The translations under genes and the position numbers were made by a program. The notes beneath the pieces are model-generated. The model was not told the DNA's origin, made no database searches, and saw only the letters and a list, made by a program, of their open reading frames with translations. A DNA stretch of 29,988 nt from a virus: positions 1 through 29,988 of the IMG/VR virus record IMGVR_UViG_3300045135_002333. One strand, 5' to 3'. Each line of letters opens with the position of its first letter. The stretch's first letter is position 1. Shown here in pieces: positions 3,276-9,650 of the stretch.

Positions 3276-3328
3276 CAGGAAAAAAAATCTCCGCATTGTG
3301 GGGGGTCGGGTCTGCAGACATTCACGTT

Positions 3329-3733
3329 TTAGAAATCGGACCCACCCCCCCGGTTGTCCATTGCCTGCTTCGCGCCATCGTGGCAGCGCTTACACAGGGC
3401 TTGCAGGTTCCCTTCATCCCAGAACAAAACCAGGTTGCCCTTGTGTGGCTTGATGTGATCCACAACCGGACTATTGGGCGCGTGGCGCTTACCCACCAGC
3501 AACACGCCGCAGCCTGGCATCTGACAAGTGAACCCGTCACGCTCCAGGATCTTGATCCGCACACCAGTTTCTGGATGGCGCCAGCGCTTCGTGTTGTATA
3601 GCCCGCGCAGGGATGTGCCGGCGTGATCGCGCCGGTGCTGATCGCGGGCGCGCTCGGCCGCGGCCTTGTCTGCATAACCCACCGCCCGAGGCGCCATTGC
3701 CAGGCGCTTAGGCGGCGCCTTCAAGCGCCCCAT
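3329..3733 (-). CDS. HNH endonuclease
   Basis: A 134-residue protein with a complete HNH fold in its C-terminal half: the zinc-knuckle pair DGFTCQMPGC, the catalytic VVDHIKPHKGN, the Asn-bearing LFWDEGNLQALC and a second knuckle CKRCHDGAKQ. The N-terminus is basic (RLKAPPKRLAMAPR), suited to DNA binding. HNH proteins encoded next to terminase genes are common in cos phages, and in HK97 the equivalent protein (gp74) stimulates terminase cleavage at cos. The position directly upstream of the small subunit supports that role rather than a homing nuclease. The ATG at 3733 has GGTGGTGA upstream. A hairpin between this gene and the preceding one may separate or attenuate transcription. Confidence 0.92.
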   Translation of the reverse strand: MGRLKAPPKRLAMAPRAVGYADKAAAERARDQHRRDHAGTSLRGLYNTKRWRHPETGVRIKILERDGFTCQMPGCGVLLVGKRHAPNSPVVDHIKPHKGNLVLFWDEGNLQALCKRCHDGAKQAMDNRGGGSDF

Positions 3734-3852: not shown

Positions 3853-4575
3853 TCAAGCCTTTTTCTTTTCCCACCGCCCGAAGCCCAGGCCATCGGCCAC
3901 ATCATCCAGGGCCGCCAGCAGCGCCTCGGCCAGGGCTTTGCGGTTGGCAGTTTGGGCTGACCACCCATGGCGGCGCAGCACATCATCCAGCGCCAGGCCA
4001 TCGACACAGACCGCAATCAGGGCAGGAAACGCTTTAATATCCTGGCGCTTGCCTCCATTGCGCTGCACCAGCATCAGAATGCGCTCGGCCGCCGGCATCG
4101 CCCGACCACGCCGGCGATGCGGCCAGCGGTTGGCCAGCATTTCGATGATCAGCAGCCGCTCGGCATGTTTTACGCGGGTGGTGGCGCCACCGTCTGAAAT
4201 TCCGCCCTTACTATCTGTTCCCGCCAAATCGGACCCCTTCACCGATCCGATCCGCTCCATTGTATCGGCCAGCTGATTTGCGGCACGCCGGCGCGGGTCT
4301 ACCTCGGACAGATCCGACAGAACGCGGGGCAGCGCGCGCCGCGCGGTCTTATACCCCAGCGGGGTGATAGGCTCGGGCCTGCCATCGGCGCCGGCCTCTT
4401 CGATCACATCCAGCGCAACACGAGACTGACCCAACGCGGCCGGCGGTCGCGCCCCACCAGGCGCGTGCGGCCGATCATCATGGCCCTGGCGCCGGCCAGC
4501 TGCCGCCGCAATGATCGCCAGATTTACCTGGCCCAGGTATTTGGCCGCCCGGCCCTGGTCAACGTCATAAGCCAT
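3853..4575 (-). CDS. Unknown basic phage protein with HTH-like C-terminus
   Basis: A 240-residue protein that I do not recognise with certainty. The ATG at 4575 has a good GGAGG ribosome site. The N-terminal third is rich in Ala, Arg and Pro (AAAAGRRQGHDDRP). The middle is helical (ERLLIIEMLANRWPHRRRGR). The C-terminal 45 residues, including LALDDVLRRHGWSAQTANRK followed by ALAEALLAALDDVADGLG, look like a compact helical DNA-binding domain, recalling the C-terminal module of alphaproteobacterial DUF6456 proteins; that resemblance is my impression only. It is the first gene after the repeat-rich stretch 4576-5100 and starts the packaging transcript, so it could regulate that transcript or bind the repeats. 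That role is inference. Confidence 0.75.
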   Translation of the reverse strand: MAYDVDQGRAAKYLGQVNLAIIAAAAGRRQGHDDRPHAPGGARPPAALGQSRVALDVIEEAGADGRPEPITPLGYKTARRALPRVLSDLSEVDPRRRAANQLADTMERIGSVKGSDLAGTDSKGGISDGGATTRVKHAERLLIIEMLANRWPHRRRGRAMPAAERILMLVQRNGGKRQDIKAFPALIAVCVDGLALDDVLRRHGWSAQTANRKALAEALLAALDDVADGLGFGRWEKKKA

Positions 4576-4637
4576 CTGCGATGCCTCCTATATTTTGTGC
4601 CTCTTCTACCTACCACCACCACATTCTGATTTAATCA

Positions 4638-5063
4638 GGGATTGAGACAATAAATAGGGATTGAAAAGGGATTGAGTAGGGATTGAGATAATGCGCAAAA
4701 ATTACGCAAAGCGTTGATATATCACGAAAAAACATAACATGAGGGATTGAGGGACTGAAACACCCGACTATTACGCGACCCGGCTTTTTTGCGCGCCCCT
4801 TACCCCTTTAGCAAAATCCAAAAGACCCCAATATTCAGTCCCTCAATCCCCAAACAGGAAAGCCCGTCTTATATCTCGTTGGAAATATTCACTTATTTCT
4901 GTGGATTGAGTTACATTTTTCACGCCCTCTTTTGGGGATTGAGGGATTGAAAATCATTTTCTGAGAATGAGGGGTGCGGGGTTTTGGGTGAAGGCGCGGC
5001 CGGGCTGGGGAAGCGCGCCGCCGCCGGCCGCCGCCGCTCGGCGCTCCCCACCGCCTCAATCCC
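4638..5063. repeat. Cluster of GGGATTGA 8-bp repeats (iteron-like region)
   Basis: This gene-free stretch carries repeated GGGATTGA units. Direct copies lie at 4638-4645, 4657-4664, 4668-4675, 4679-4686, 4743-4750, 4935-4942 and 4943-4950, with GGATTGAG at 4903-4910. Reverse-strand copies (TCAATCCC) lie at 4843-4850 and 5056-5063. Two variants GGGACTGA occur at 4751-4758 and, inverted, at 4835-4842. Copies are spaced 8-19 bases apart in the left cluster and in tandem at 4935. The region is strikingly AT-rich between copies (for example 4641-4670 and 4681-4740) in an otherwise GC-rich sequence, then turns extremely GC-rich at 5010-5045. Repeats plus an AT-rich segment next to primase and helicase genes fit a replication origin; closeness to the terminase genes also allows a packaging site. 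No protein-coding gene is evident from 4576 to 5168. Confidence 0.8.
4743..4850. repeat. 17-bp perfect inverted repeat within the iteron region
   Basis: GGGATTGAGGGACTGAA at 4743-4759 is matched exactly in reverse complement by TTCAGTCCCTCAATCCC at 4834-4850. Each arm is one GGGATTGA unit fused to one GGGACTGA unit. The 74-base interval is AT-rich at its ends and contains GCGCGCCCC in the middle. Confidence 0.9.
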
Positions 5064-5099
5064 TGCGATGATCAGGGCAAGCCTGGACGGACCAGGCAC

Positions 5100-5136
5100 A
5101 AAAAAAAGGGCCGGCCTACGTTGTGCAGGCCGGCCC
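5100..5136 (-). terminator. Strong rho-independent terminator of the early/replication operon
   Basis: A perfect 10-bp stem, GGGCCGGCCT at 5108-5117 with AGGCCGGCCC at 5127-5136, has a 9-base loop and is followed on the minus strand by eight U (A-run at 5100-5107). It lies 33 bases after the last gene of the leftward operon and separates it from the repeat region and packaging genes. Confidence 0.93.
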
Positions 5137-5168
5137 GGTCAGGGTGGATAATATTGGTCAACTACATT

Positions 5169-5411
5169 TCAAAACAGCGCGCCCTGGTCAGGATCGGCGG
5201 GCGTGGCCGGCCGCGCAGTCGGTCGGCGCGCACCATCCCCAAACGGATCGGCCTTATCCATCACGGCCTTCCTGCGCGCTTCGGCCTGGGCCTTGCAGGC
5301 CTCTTTCGCACAGGTCCAGATCGGGCGGCGCACCCGCACCAGGCGCGGCGGCGGCGCATATCCAAATGGTGCCACGGGATCGCCGCAGAAATCGCAAGGG
5401 TGGCCGCTCAT
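5169..5411 (-). CDS. Small zinc-ribbon-like protein
   Basis: An 80-residue product starting at the ATG at 5411 (MSGHPCDFCGD), chosen because it overlaps the preceding stop as ATGA. Four cysteines in a CxxC ... CxxxxC arrangement (CDFCGDP and WTCAKEAC) suggest a single zinc-binding knuckle, and the region between is basic (RLVRVRRP). The C-terminus is disordered and Pro/Asp-rich. It is the last gene before the operon terminator. Function is unknown; DNA or protein binding through the zinc knuckle is a guess. Confidence 0.72.
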   Translation of the reverse strand: MSGHPCDFCGDPVAPFGYAPPPRLVRVRRPIWTCAKEACKAQAEARRKAVMDKADPFGDGARRPTARPATPADPDQGALF

Positions 5412-5797
5412 TGCGCCACCTGGCGCCGGCTGCGGCGGGTACGCCGCCCGCAATGCTTTTTGCGCAGATTGCGCCCCAGCCGTGACGTGGATTTTTCAGC
5501 CTGGCTATAGATCGTCACGGCCACGCCGTTGTCGCGGCGGATCACCGGATAAAACGCGCCCTCGGGCAACAGGATGCGATACAGCGATGTGTCTGGGCAT
5601 ATGTCCCACACCTTTTCAATCACATCCTGGCGACCCTCAAACAGCGCGCGCTCCACCGCCCATTTCAGAAGATCCCCAGGAATGCAGCACACGCCGCGCT
5701 GGCCGGCGCGCTCACCGAAATGGGTAAGAGGCGTGGAATTGAATAAAGCGGGCGGCGGCACCATGTCGGCCACGCCGGGCAGAAATGGCCGCAGCAT
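5408..5797 (-). CDS. Hypothetical protein in replication operon (129 aa)
   Basis: Starts at the ATG at 5797, overlapping the helicase stop as TGATG; a GTG three bases upstream is also in frame. No family is recognised. The first part is compact (VPPPALFNSTPLTHFGERAG and CCIPGDLLKWAVERAL). The centre looks beta-rich (TSLYRILLPEGAFYPVIRRD, VAVTIYSQ), and the C-terminus is strongly basic (RLGRNLRKKHCGRRTRRSRR), suggesting nucleic-acid contact. Tight coupling to helicase and primase implies a replication-related or DNA-related role. Confidence 0.75.
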   Translation of the reverse strand: MLRPFLPGVADMVPPPALFNSTPLTHFGERAGQRGVCCIPGDLLKWAVERALFEGRQDVIEKVWDICPDTSLYRILLPEGAFYPVIRRDNGVAVTIYSQAEKSTSRLGRNLRKKHCGRRTRRSRRQVAQ

Positions 5798-7590
5798 CAC
5801 ATACCACCCCCGTACCGCATCAGCTCTTCGCGGCGCTCGATCCGCCGGCTGGTGGCCTCTTCACTGATTTTCAGGCAGCGATACCCGGTCACGCCTCCGG
5901 TTTTCGCGTCGGTATAGCTATTGCCGGCCGGCCCCTTCACCACGCCCATGCGTTCACGAATGCGCAGGGCAATGTTGCGCGCGCCCCAGGGCTTTTCCCC
6001 GCGATCCAGCTGCCACGCCATAAAGGCATCGCGCAGATCCCGGCCGCTTTCGAAATCTTTGGGGTTTTCCGTCACCTCGCATTGCGTGGTTAAAAATTCG
6101 CGCATCGGGTCGGACAGGGTGCGATATTCCGCCGTTGCATCCACCACCGCTTGCGGCACCGGCAGGCCATCCTGCAGATAGTCCAGACAGCCCTGGACCA
6201 GCCAGGCCATGATGCCATCGCGCTCGGCCTCCAGCTTGGCCGGCAGATCCCGGTCCACCTCACCATCTGGAATTTGTTCCTGGAACGGCACCAGCATGAC
6301 CCGGCGCCAAATCCCATCATCTGCACCGCGGATTTCCGGCTTGTGGTTGCCCGAAATAGTCAACTTAAACTCCGGCACAACTTCGATAAATTCCGAGTGC
6401 ATCCGGCGGATCATAATCGCTTCGCCGCCGGTCAAAGCCTTAATCAGCGCCTCTTTCATGCGCTGGCCCTGTTCAGGCTCCGAGGCGCGCACAAACCGCG
6501 CACCAGGAATGCGCACCAGGTCCGGCGTGGCATCCGATCCCTTGCGCTGTTCGCTGCCGGTCAGGGTTTCAATGGGCAGGGTGGTGCCGTAGTCGTCAAA
6601 CAGCTTTGCCAGCGTGTCCACCATGGTGGATTTACCATTGCGCCCGATCCCGAAAAGGAAGGCCAGCTTTTGCTCGCCGGTTAGCCCGGTCATGGAATAG
6701 CCAAACCAGCGCTTTAGGAATGTCCGCACTTCTTGATCAGGCTGCACCCGCTCCAGAAAGGCCTCCCAGATCGGCGCCTTCGCATCCAGGCGAAACTCGG
6801 CCTGCATCATTTTGCTGATTTTTTGCTCGCGCTTCTGGGGCAGCAACTCGGCACGCCAGATTTCACTCGGCTGGCCGAAACTGGCCGCCACCTGGTCAAT
6901 ATCCTTTACGAAATGCACCACCCCATTCAGGCAGTTGACCATGTATTTCTCGCGGTTCAGGCTATCCACATCGGTACTGGCCGCAATCTTCGCCTCCGCC
7001 ACCATGTTGCTGATCTTCGACGTGTTGCCCGAGTTTTTGGCATGGCTGGCGTGGCTGGATCGCTTCGTGCGCAAAGCCTTGGCCGCCTCTTCCCCCGCAT
7101 CGCGGATCGGCAGCAATTCCTTGTAGCGCTTCTTTTGTTCGTCGCTGCGGTCGCTGGGCGTGATCGCCTCCAATTCCCGATAGTCCGACCGGACATCATG
7201 CCACAGATCCAGGGCATCGCGCTGCCAATCATCCAGGGCAATGAACGGTATTTCGTGCAGTATGTGCGCGGCAATTTTCTGCGCATCGCGGCGCACTTCA
7301 ATTTCATCTTCATCTGCCACCCAGCGCTGGCCAGACCAGCGGAACCAACCCAGGCGCTTCACAAACAGCAGATCCTCGCCGTAATAGGTCATAAGGCGCT
7401 GACCATTCCCGAAATCGTTCAAAGGGAAGGCCGCGGCCCTGGCCTCGGGCGCATCTTCATCTGGAAGATCGCGCGGCGGCGGCATGTCGCCTTCGGGCGG
7501 ATCAAGCCCATCCCCTGGCGCGACCATATCCGCAGGGATTTCTACAGTTTCGGCACCCTCGGCAACCGATTGAATGTTTTCGAATGTCAT
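5797..7590 (-). CDS. Replicative SF3 helicase, phage D5/P4-type
   Basis: 597 residues from the ATG at 7590 (MTFENIQS), which overlaps the primase stop as ATGA. An N-terminal D5-type region (about 70-290) precedes a superfamily 3 helicase core. Visible motifs: Walker A GIGRNGKST at about 314-322, then the region LVRIPGARFVRASEPEQGQR with the acidic Walker B-like segment, and motif C TISGNHKPEIRGADDGIWRR at about 411-430 with the Asn sensor and Arg. The C-terminus (ALRIRERMGVVKGPAGNSYT) resembles the winged-helix tail common in this family. SF3 helicases assemble at an origin as hexamers and unwind it. Together with the separate Toprim primase just upstream this makes a two-gene equivalent of the P4 alpha protein. 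Confidence 0.93.
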   Translation of the reverse strand: MTFENIQSVAEGAETVEIPADMVAPGDGLDPPEGDMPPPRDLPDEDAPEARAAAFPLNDFGNGQRLMTYYGEDLLFVKRLGWFRWSGQRWVADEDEIEVRRDAQKIAAHILHEIPFIALDDWQRDALDLWHDVRSDYRELEAITPSDRSDEQKKRYKELLPIRDAGEEAAKALRTKRSSHASHAKNSGNTSKISNMVAEAKIAASTDVDSLNREKYMVNCLNGVVHFVKDIDQVAASFGQPSEIWRAELLPQKREQKISKMMQAEFRLDAKAPIWEAFLERVQPDQEVRTFLKRWFGYSMTGLTGEQKLAFLFGIGRNGKSTMVDTLAKLFDDYGTTLPIETLTGSEQRKGSDATPDLVRIPGARFVRASEPEQGQRMKEALIKALTGGEAIMIRRMHSEFIEVVPEFKLTISGNHKPEIRGADDGIWRRVMLVPFQEQIPDGEVDRDLPAKLEAERDGIMAWLVQGCLDYLQDGLPVPQAVVDATAEYRTLSDPMREFLTTQCEVTENPKDFESGRDLRDAFMAWQLDRGEKPWGARNIALRIRERMGVVKGPAGNSYTDAKTGGVTGYRCLKISEEATSRRIERREELMRYGGGM

Positions 7591-8708
7591 TTGCCCGCAT
7601 CCTCTTTTAGCGCTTCGCGCCACATATCGTTGAAGTCTTTCCCCGCGTCGGCGCGCAGGATTTCCGCCACCAGGCCCGGCCGGGTCAGCCGCGCGCGGAT
7701 CGCGCCGGCCTCCAGCTTGGCGCGGGTGGCCTTTTCGGCGCTATCGCCATCCTGCAAACTCAAATACCGGGCGATGCCTTCCGGCGGCACAAAGGCCTCC
7801 AGATCTTCCATGTCCGGCTTGCCGCTATGGCGCTTGCCTGGCTCTTTCAGCTGGCGGCCGGACATATTGCCCAGGTCCACACCGGCCCAGAAAATCGCCC
7901 CCGGCCAAATCCGCATCATCATGGCGCTGGCGGTGGTTTCGATCCCTTCGCCCATCACCATGCGGCCGGTGTTGTTCCAAGGCGATAGGCGGATGGCGCC
8001 GCCCTTCTTTGACCCGCGCACCAACTTGGAAGGCAGCGCCTTGCCATCAGCGCCGATGATCCTGGCCTTTTCACCAGGGCGCGCCGGATCGATCCATGTT
8101 TGGTGAACCGCACGCACCTGGCCGGCGGCATCCTGGATGGCCGCAATCATGCAAGGCCCGCGATGGCACTGGATTGCGCGCCCTCGGGCGGCGGCCTTCA
8201 TATAGGGATGATCTGGCAGGAAGCGCAGCGCCGGCGGCCAGACTGCAAAGCGAATGCCGCGGCCGGCCAGATACGCCTCGGCCGGGCTGCCCTGGCCTGG
8301 CTGCGCAGCGTGCCAAATCTCGCGCGCGTCACGGATGGCCCGCGCACGCATGGCCGCTTCCACCTCGCGCCGTTTCTTGTCGGCCGCCTCGGCCTTGGCC
8401 TTGCGCTTGGCCACCACGGCCGGATCTGGCGCAACGTCCGCAGACCCCACCAGGAAATCCAACGCCTTCACAAAGTTACAGCCCAGCACATGCTGGACCA
8501 GCTTTAGACCGTCGCCACCCTCGTTACAGGTGCGGCAATTCCACAACCCGCGCGCAGGATTGACGCCAAATCGATCACGGCCGCCACACACCGGGCAAGG
8601 CCCGTGGCGCTCGCCACCCGTGGGGCGCAGCCCACCAATACCCAGGCGGGAAACCACTTCCATGATCGGGATGGCTTTTGCTTCATGCTTTCGCCCATCG
8701 TCGCGCAT
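7587..8708 (-). CDS. DNA primase with CHC2-like zinc ribbon and Toprim domain
   Basis: 373 residues from the ATG at 8708, which overlaps the preceding stop as TGATG. The N-terminal zinc ribbon has Cys at 38, 41, 58 and 61 (CPVCGG ... WNCRTC), followed by GGDGLKLVQ as in phage P4/T7-type primases. The Toprim domain has the acidic EGIET at 254-258 and the DGD at 320-322. A late motif GKDFNDMWRE is typical of Toprim_3 phage primases. It would lay down RNA primers on DNA opened by the SF3 helicase encoded next. The region between zinc ribbon and Toprim (residues 95-135) is a highly charged helix, probably a linker. Confidence 0.92.
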   Translation of the reverse strand: MRDDGRKHEAKAIPIMEVVSRLGIGGLRPTGGERHGPCPVCGGRDRFGVNPARGLWNCRTCNEGGDGLKLVQHVLGCNFVKALDFLVGSADVAPDPAVVAKRKAKAEAADKKRREVEAAMRARAIRDAREIWHAAQPGQGSPAEAYLAGRGIRFAVWPPALRFLPDHPYMKAAARGRAIQCHRGPCMIAAIQDAAGQVRAVHQTWIDPARPGEKARIIGADGKALPSKLVRGSKKGGAIRLSPWNNTGRMVMGEGIETTASAMMMRIWPGAIFWAGVDLGNMSGRQLKEPGKRHSGKPDMEDLEAFVPPEGIARYLSLQDGDSAEKATRAKLEAGAIRARLTRPGLVAEILRADAGKDFNDMWREALKEDAGK

Positions 8709-9169
8709 CACGCCGCACCCCGCGCCTTCTGGCCAGGTGCAACACCATCCATAGCAAAGGAAGGCGGCGCAAAGGCTTCAAACGTGAACCCCGCGCCAGC
8801 GGTCAGCGCATAGCCCAGGCCATCCACAGAACGGATTTCCACCGGCAACTCCAGGGCTGCCAGCGCTTTGCGCAGCGCGCAAATGCCCTTAATCACCATA
8901 TCGTCGCTACCCCATTCATCGCAGGGCCGATCAAGGCACCGCGCGGCCAGCAGGCTATCGATGGACACAAACCGGCCCCGGCGCCGATCCAGGGCAAACA
9001 ACATGCGAAGATCCGCGGGCGATGCCTCCAGCTGCAATTCTGCGCAGCCCTCAAAGAAGGCCGGCACCGGCGCCAGGTAATAGCCGATCAGATCCATGGC
9101 ATATTCCACTTGCTCGGCAGCAGGCTGGGCCATGATTTCATCGCGGATATGGGCCATTGGATCACGCAT
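8708..9169 (-). CDS. Orphan OmpR/PhoB-type winged-helix DNA-binding protein
   Basis: 153 residues from the ATG at 9169 (MRDPMAHIRD), chosen because it overlaps the upstream stop by 8 bases (ATGCGTGA) and has GGGGG upstream; a start at 9217 is possible but lacks a ribosome site. Residues about 45-122 match the OmpR/PhoB C-terminal winged helix in shape: LEASPADLRMLFALDRRRGR, FVSIDSLLAARC, the recognition-helix segment DDMVIKGICALRKALA, and the wing VEIRSVDGLGYAL. Alphaproteobacterial CtrA has the same layout with VWGRGYVL. There is no receiver domain, so it is not a standard two-component regulator. Placed in the replication operon, it may be an origin-binding or early regulatory factor; the function is inference. 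Confidence 0.78.
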   Translation of the reverse strand: MRDPMAHIRDEIMAQPAAEQVEYAMDLIGYYLAPVPAFFEGCAELQLEASPADLRMLFALDRRRGRFVSIDSLLAARCLDRPCDEWGSDDMVIKGICALRKALAALELPVEIRSVDGLGYALTAGAGFTFEAFAPPSFAMDGVAPGQKARGAA

Positions 9170-9446
9170 CACCGGCACCCCCAGACTTTCGCGCCCAATG
9201 TCGGCAATTCCAGGCATTCGCGCGGCGGGACTTTTGCACGGTTAAACGTGCGCACTCGGCATGGGGGAATTCACCCGCCGCCAGGTTGGGGCGCAGCTTA
9301 CCCTGGTAATGGGTGCAGGTGCCGCAAATACGCTGCAAATGCAGCGGGCAGGATGGATTATGGGGCAAATGCTCTACAGGCCGCTTTGGCAGCGGGCGAT
9401 CACCGGCGCGCGCATCCAGATAATCGGCGTCAAGTTCGTCAGACAT
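9162..9446 (-). CDS. Small Cys/His-rich protein
   Basis: 94 residues; the ATG at 9446 has AAGGGTGAAG upstream. Five cysteines, including CPLHLQRICGTCTHYQG, then C in HAECARL and C in NAWNCRHW, suggest a metal-binding fold such as those of small phage NinF-like or zinc-finger proteins, but I cannot name a family. It overlaps the winged-helix gene by 8 bases. One of the GCACG-N6-CGTGC palindromes lies inside its coding sequence, encoding part of CARLTVQ, so that operator copy is constrained by both protein and DNA function. Confidence 0.72.
   Translation of the reverse strand: MSDELDADYLDARAGDRPLPKRPVEHLPHNPSCPLHLQRICGTCTHYQGKLRPNLAAGEFPHAECARLTVQKSRRANAWNCRHWARKSGGAGDA
9236..9251. promoter_or_regulatory. 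Operator-like palindrome GCACG-GTTAAA-CGTGC
   Basis: A perfect 5-bp inverted repeat around an AT-rich 6-bp centre, inside the Cys/His-rich early gene. An intragenic copy far from a start codon resembles the roadblock (stoperator) sites of some temperate phages. Confidence 0.65.
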
Positions 9447-9449
9447 ACT

Positions 9450-9650
9450 TCACCCTTTCCGGCGAATGGCGCCAGCGGTCAGGCGGCGCAGTGGGCTTTT
9501 AGGAAGGGCATTCGGTGCTGATCGCACCAGGCCCAGATATTCCCGCAGGATTTGTTTCGCCATAGCGCTGGCGCTGGTCTGCGCATCCTCGGCCATGGCC
9601 TCAATCAGATTGCGATCACTGCGCGGCAAGGCATCCAGAAGATCATCCAT
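9450..9650 (-). CDS. Small ribbon-helix-helix-like protein
   Basis: 66 residues from the ATG at 9650 (MDDLLDALPRSDRNLIEAMA), chosen because it overlaps the preceding stop by 8 bases (ATGGATGA). The segment LPRSDRNLIEAMAEDAQTSA then SAMAKQILREYLGL has the spacing of an Arc/MetJ-type ribbon-helix-helix: short strand, helix, turn, helix. The C-terminus is basic (SPLRRLTAGAIRRKG). It is the second gene of the leftward early operon, after the Cro-like gene, so it may be a second early regulator. The RHH assignment is by eye and not certain. Confidence 0.7.
   Translation of the reverse strand: MDDLLDALPRSDRNLIEAMAEDAQTSASAMAKQILREYLGLVRSAPNALPKSPLRRLTAGAIRRKG

Follow-up and report, generated by a model that had tools for sequence, protein, structure and literature searches.

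A short-repeat array 3' of an SF3 helicase gene as a candidate replication origin of alphaproteobacterial tailed phages and phage-plasmids

Analysis of the viral IMG/VR record IMGVR_UViG_3300045135_002333 (29,988 bases; this whole stretch of DNA is referred to as the window) revealed an array of short repeats that is probably an iteron replication origin, whose likeliest reader is the SF3 helicase of the same phage. The sequence basis of this reading is a set of about 12 short units, in which two inner pairs, inverted relative to each other, enclose a 76-bp centre and the units of an outer direct array are helically spaced. On comparison of sequences, the position of the array is best read as that of an origin 3' of a primase-helicase pair, organized like the pri-rep-ori unit of PICI/SaPI elements and residing here in complete tailed phages. 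More tentatively, and with slightly less than even confidence, we propose that a large group of alphaproteobacterial tailed phages and phage-plasmids may share a PICI-type 12-site dyad origin 3' of a separate SF3 helicase gene; in such origins the layout and the motif GGGGTGCGGGG would be constant, with concerted drift of the unit. No described origin for these phages was found in the literature searched, and no earlier description of these arrays was found in a search limited to one open library. If the origin reading is right, it locates the start of replication for widespread, little-studied alphaproteobacterial temperate phages and phage-plasmids.

Architecture of the array in the window

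Nine exact copies of GGGATTGA occur in the window, every one of them inside positions 4638-5063, against a chance expectation of 1.30 for the whole window; none of 100 shuffles reached nine, and chance is excluded as the origin of the repeats. Three further copies with one mismatch (GGGACTGA at 4751 and 4835, TGGATTGA at 4902) lie within the cluster, giving an array of 12 sites, nine on the plus and three on the minus strand, with three tandem pairs of units (4743-4758, 4835-4850 and 4935-4950). A preliminary description of this DNA had listed about ten 8-bp units in both orientations, which agrees with the 12 sites (nine exact), and two tandem units, where we count three tandem pairs. It was also correct in placing the units in an AT-rich gap, since positions 4591-4961 have the lowest GC content of any 371 bp of the window (0.41 vs 0.607 for the whole window). 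The centre between the inner pairs has a GC content of 0.50 and contains a G-rich stretch, and the lowest GC content is found in a flank of the centre.

The inner pairs are part of a 17-bp exact inverted repeat, in which 4743-4759 pairs with 4834-4850 across a gap of 74 bp. The far-side units appear to correspond to the outer array in a decayed or rearranged form (Table 1), and the full outer dyad of the window, being decayed, amounts to only two pairs, which is not significant against shuffles.

The flanking genes all lie on the minus strand, in the order primase, SF3 helicase, two small open reading frames, terminator, array, p240 (a 240-residue protein), HNH, TerS and TerL. The neighboring operon does encode an SF3 helicase and a primase, as had been noted from the sequence at the outset. 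The strong terminator said to bound the array is likewise present, with a 12-bp stem, a T8 run and a folding z of -5.8; however, the replication operon, which had been taken to be the next operon, lies upstream of the array and is ended by this terminator, and the genes downstream are p240 and the packaging genes. Directly before the primase, the protein at 8708-9217, one of two candidate binders proposed at the outset, has a sub-threshold match to Trans_reg_C (OmpR-type winged helix).

Table 1. Coordinates of the array elements and neighboring features in the window
Feature	Position	Strand	Support
Probable cos, outside the array: G-rich conserved element between HNH and TerS	3283..3351	-	
p240, 240-residue protein directly after the array	3853..4575	-	C-terminal helix-turn-helix-like region
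Outer direct array, four GGGATTGA at 4638, 4657, 4668 and 4679 (steps 19, 11, 11 bp)	4638..4686	+	
Inner tandem pair GGGATTGA-GGGACTGA, forming one of the inner dyad's two arms	4743..4758	+	Almost all relatives have an inner pair or triplet
Centre of 76 bp, candidate melting region, flanked by the inverted inner pairs	4759..4834	none	
Inner tandem pair GGGATTGA-GGGACTGA, opposite arm of the inner dyad	4835..4850	-	17-bp exact inverted repeat
Far-side units, TGGATTGA at 4902 and a tandem pair	4902..4950	+	
GGGGTGCGGGG, 11-bp fixed motif	4971..4981	+	
Lone GGGATTGA unit, closest to the helicase side	5056..5063	-	
Intrinsic terminator closing the replication operon	5099..5136	-	Stem and T8 run, folding
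SF3 (D5_N / DUF5906) helicase, proposed initiator	5797..7623	-	Domain match; array after it in relatives
Toprim / zinc-ribbon primase	7587..8711	-	

Conservation and concerted drift in relatives

Relatives were collected by scans with the helicase and with p240, which gave several dozen loci (L numbers below), and the isolated phages RcapNL, Pthi1 and AmM-1 were included. The gene order primase, helicase, p240, HNH, TerS, TerL is kept in most of them. Every close relative has, in the region preceding p240, a short unit that is densely clustered there and rare in the remainder of the locus, and this unit varies from one relative to the next (GGGATTAA, GGGATCGA, TGGGATCA, AGGGATCAA, CAGGGAG, GGGAGGAT and GGGAAGC). 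The isolated phages have units of their own, GGGACGCA in RcapNL, GGGCCTGA in Pthi1 and GGGAGGCTA in AmM-1. From phage to phage the unit thus changes jointly across all copies of an array at constant layout, and the fact that nearly all copies in one phage are that phage's unit points to one trans-acting reader.

In a uniform test of the site that adjoins the end of the helicase gene or, if other genes lie between, of the site immediately preceding p240, significant arrays were found in 37 of 45 helicase-bearing loci vs none of the 13 post-TerL regions that served as controls. Among the eight loci lacking a significant array by this strict count, L037, L071, L072 and L074 have weak but arranged sites, and no array was seen in L060, L062, L079 and L087. 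The idea of an iteron origin in the preliminary description gains support from the conserved position and layout of the array beside the SF3 helicase of relatives. A search of viral contigs for GGGATTGAGGGATTGA returned 28 loci of mixed GC content, most with a single tandem and with no clear array. Because the unit drifts, sequence alone is a poor guide to these arrays; synteny succeeded.

Site maps of the array loci were derived by motif fitting. The fullest layout consists of an outer triplet (steps 9 and 21), a spacing of about 67 bp and an inner triplet (steps 9 and 9), followed by the centre, which is mostly 70-99 bp long, and by the mirror image of these sites. Exact 12-site dyads of six pairs, in which the far side mirrors the other side exactly, occur in L059, L066, L073 and L089, and no shuffle out of 100 reached this arrangement. 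An inner pair or triplet is present in nearly all relatives, and in 33 loci the centre measures 50-99 bp, mostly 70-99, with a mean GC content of 0.53 vs 0.635 for the genome (below the genome value in 29 of the 33). In the clade of the window, the outer array nearer p240 and the inverted inner pairs are retained, and the outer part on the helicase side is rearranged; outer-array steps of 11, 11 and 18-20 recur at the equivalent place in L037, L039, L041, L043 and L045.

A second element remains constant while the iteron units drift, namely the motif GGGGTGCGGGG/CCCCGCACCCC. GGGGTGCGGGG or its complement is present in 28 of the 33 array regions, with 51 matches (at most one mismatch) in 22 kb vs 48 matches in 570 kb outside the array regions; the arrays are thus 27-fold richer, compared with 0 to 9-fold for shuffled patterns. 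The partner of this motif is possibly a host factor or the primase.

Candidate readers of the unit and comparison with known replicons

The helicase and p240 are both candidate readers. The array lies within about 100 bp of the end of the helicase gene in L059, L066, L073, L075, AmM-1 and the plasmid locus L099, whereas in L036, L039, L045 and L077 it stays with p240 and the helicase is 3.5-6 kb away. The preliminary description had nominated the protein at 3853-4575, p240, as a binder; in most relatives it does follow the array directly, yet several phages that retain the array lack it or carry a replacement (L058, L061, L063, L066, L070, L075, L076, L078 and AmM-1). Its position is taken by other open reading frames in AmM-1, L066, L070 and L075 and by a DUF6456 protein in L076, the match of L058 to DUF6456 being weak, and in L063 and L078 no p240-like gene directly follows the array. 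Across 22 phages, Mantel correlations of unit distance were 0.49-0.55 with helicase distance and 0.43 with p240 distance, and partial correlations were 0.31-0.40 for the helicase given p240 and 0.11 for p240 given the C-terminal part of the helicase, values that leave shared ancestry in and give a lean rather than a proof. Together, these comparisons favor the helicase as the better candidate for the unit-binding protein.

The p240 family is represented in about 30 phage loci, usually just ahead of the terminase block. It gave no Pfam or PHROG match above threshold, and neither a single-sequence search nor a first scan of the genome collection returned matches. Its structure model has a mean pLDDT of 69.5; Foldseek found no match to the model below E 2, and VIA-align detected only weak helix-turn-helix similarity in the C-terminal part (RpoE Z 4.3, EL222 Z 4.0).

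An unlikely but serious alternative is that the units are operators bound by p240 or another phage regulator and control p240 and the downstream packaging or late operon. The immediate proximity of p240 in most relatives, retained where the helicase is 3.5-6 kb distant, its helix-turn-helix-like C-terminal part, and the correlation of p240 distance with unit distance are consistent with such a role, as is the location of the gap after a terminator, where a promoter would be expected. However, a scan for sigma-70-type promoters found none in the gap (a result of little weight in alphaproteobacteria), arrays are also found in phages that lack p240, carry a member of another family instead or have no such gene directly behind the array (L063, L078), operators seldom take the form of an exact dyad of 12 sites spanning about 350 bp, and the unit is better predicted by helicase distance. 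A combined origin and operator is possible.

According to the origin reading, the SF3 helicase would bind units on both sides of the centre, probably via a non-ATPase domain, load as two opposed rings, melt either the centre, with its low GC content, or the AT-rich flank, and recruit the primase; a role of p240 in modulating initiation, or its own expression, is possible. Unit binding, melting and the start of replication at the array are inferred. Cumulative GC skew, which had been suggested as a check for an origin, has no switch at the array.

In PICI/SaPI elements (SaPIbov1, SaPI1 and EcCICFT073), a primase and an SF3-like Rep are encoded with an origin 3' of rep, in which two iteron sets flank a central region and the unit differs among elements, an organization of the replicon reported as absent from any other known bacterial replicon (PMC6092414). 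The phages described here resemble them in that the primase gene is followed by the SF3 helicase gene on the same strand, the array lies 3' of the helicase (with two small open reading frames intervening in the window), two unit sets flank a centre, and the unit differs between phages. They differ in being phage-plasmids or complete tailed phages that encode their own capsid and terminase, in having units of mostly 8-9 bp with an exact 12-site dyad in several members, and in the fixed GGGGTGCGGGG motif, the only mildly AT-rich centre and the remote similarity of the helicase to the SaPI type. If the group-wide proposal is true, the PICI origin organization reaches beyond satellites, contrary to the published view (PMC6092414). 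The possibility that the phages are themselves PICI satellites was rejected, as genes for terminase, portal, capsid and tail are present in relatives of the window and in isolates. The remote helicase similarity is seen in a profile match (E 6e-5) to PDB entries 7ola/7om0, which we take to be the SaPI5 Pri-Rep.

Other replicons share single traits with the array. In phage P4, the alpha protein, with a P4/D5-family SF3 helicase, works with short origin repeats (ori and crr); alpha is a primase-helicase fusion acting at two separate sites, whereas here, compared by description only, the genes are separate and one array was found. RepA-type iteron plasmids (pPS10, P1, pSC101) combine helically spaced direct iterons, an inverted operator-like repeat and a downstream gene for a DNA-binding protein, with a winged-helix Rep; direct units at helical spacing, an inverted repeat and downstream p240 are found here as well, but p240 has no match to winged-helix Rep initiators and the array persists without it. 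In ori lambda, four direct iterons beside AT-rich DNA lie inside gene O, and the host DnaB is used; the window likewise has four direct units beside AT-rich DNA in a tailed phage, but here the array lies between genes and an SF3 helicase is encoded by the phage itself.

If the origin reading is right, phage origins would be linked to those of SaPI/PICI satellites and would be recognizable by layout where sequence similarity fails. Were the group-wide proposal true, each helicase would read a word private to its phage, giving mutually incompatible origins and a replication identity for co-infecting phages. If the arrays are origins, the group would offer about 40 matched pairs of helicase and origin, with a varying word and a constant layout, and would be well suited to the study of SF3 initiator recognition.

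Packaging sites and plasmid members

A cos or pac function had been entertained as an alternative to an origin. That the array is such a packaging site, recognized by terminase, is very improbable. The array does adjoin the HNH-TerS-TerL block, and the record of RcapNL (L088), with identical 26-base ends (1-26 and 40464-40489) annotated as a 3' cohesive overhang, ends inside its own array; however, the array is found beside two unrelated terminase types, the HNH/HK97-type and the lambda-type gpA (kept with gpA and without HNH/TerS in L055, L059, L065, L073 and AmM-1), and on a plasmid with no annotated terminase. A circular RcapNL assembly opened in the array would give the same 26-nt overlap, and the ends are possibly an assembly overlap, not virion ends; RcapNL is listed as circularly permuted (PMC8601537).

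Moreover, a conserved noncoding element (GGGGGGTGGGTC...GACCCG...CATnCGGAGATTTTTTT) is present at the HNH-TerS junction of the window and at the junctions of L036-L045 and L088, and contig ends coincide with this junction. The linear contig G008 has both ends there, about 10 nt being missing that probably represent the lost 3' overhang of a cos, and contig G005 starts at the base homologous to the junction end of G008. The cos is thus probably located at the HNH-TerS junction, about 1.3 kb from the array in the window. Our first leaning, based on L036, L039, L045 and L077, that the array is tied to p240 and packaging was overturned by gpA-type phages, p240-less phages and plasmids.

Least probable is that a prophage maintained as a plasmid uses the array for partition, as a centromere-like site. 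ParA/ParB are encoded by some relatives, which are phage-plasmids, and inverted multi-copy sites are usual for partition; however, a non-exhaustive search of the window genes identified no ParA, the par genes of the phage-plasmids are far from the array, and the array is linked to the helicase. In two of the group's phage-plasmids, ParAB occurs together with RepC or a helix-turn-helix protein, so that the array need not be the origin of their plasmid state.

In plasmid unnamed3 of Methylobacterium currus (L099, NZ_CP089299; 46 kb), the array begins 1-5 bp after the stop codon of the SF3 helicase gene; ParA is annotated on this plasmid, and its gene table, which is incomplete, lists no capsid, terminase or other Rep. 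There, positions 4554-9547 contain the helicase and the array followed by a CRISPR-like repeat array and type I-E cas genes. The Phaeobacter inhibens phage-plasmid pP88_h (L098, NZ_CP010733) has repABC-type genes as well as an SF3 helicase array, and encodes an acyl-homoserine-lactone synthase and an autoinducer-binding regulator at positions 35384-36617.
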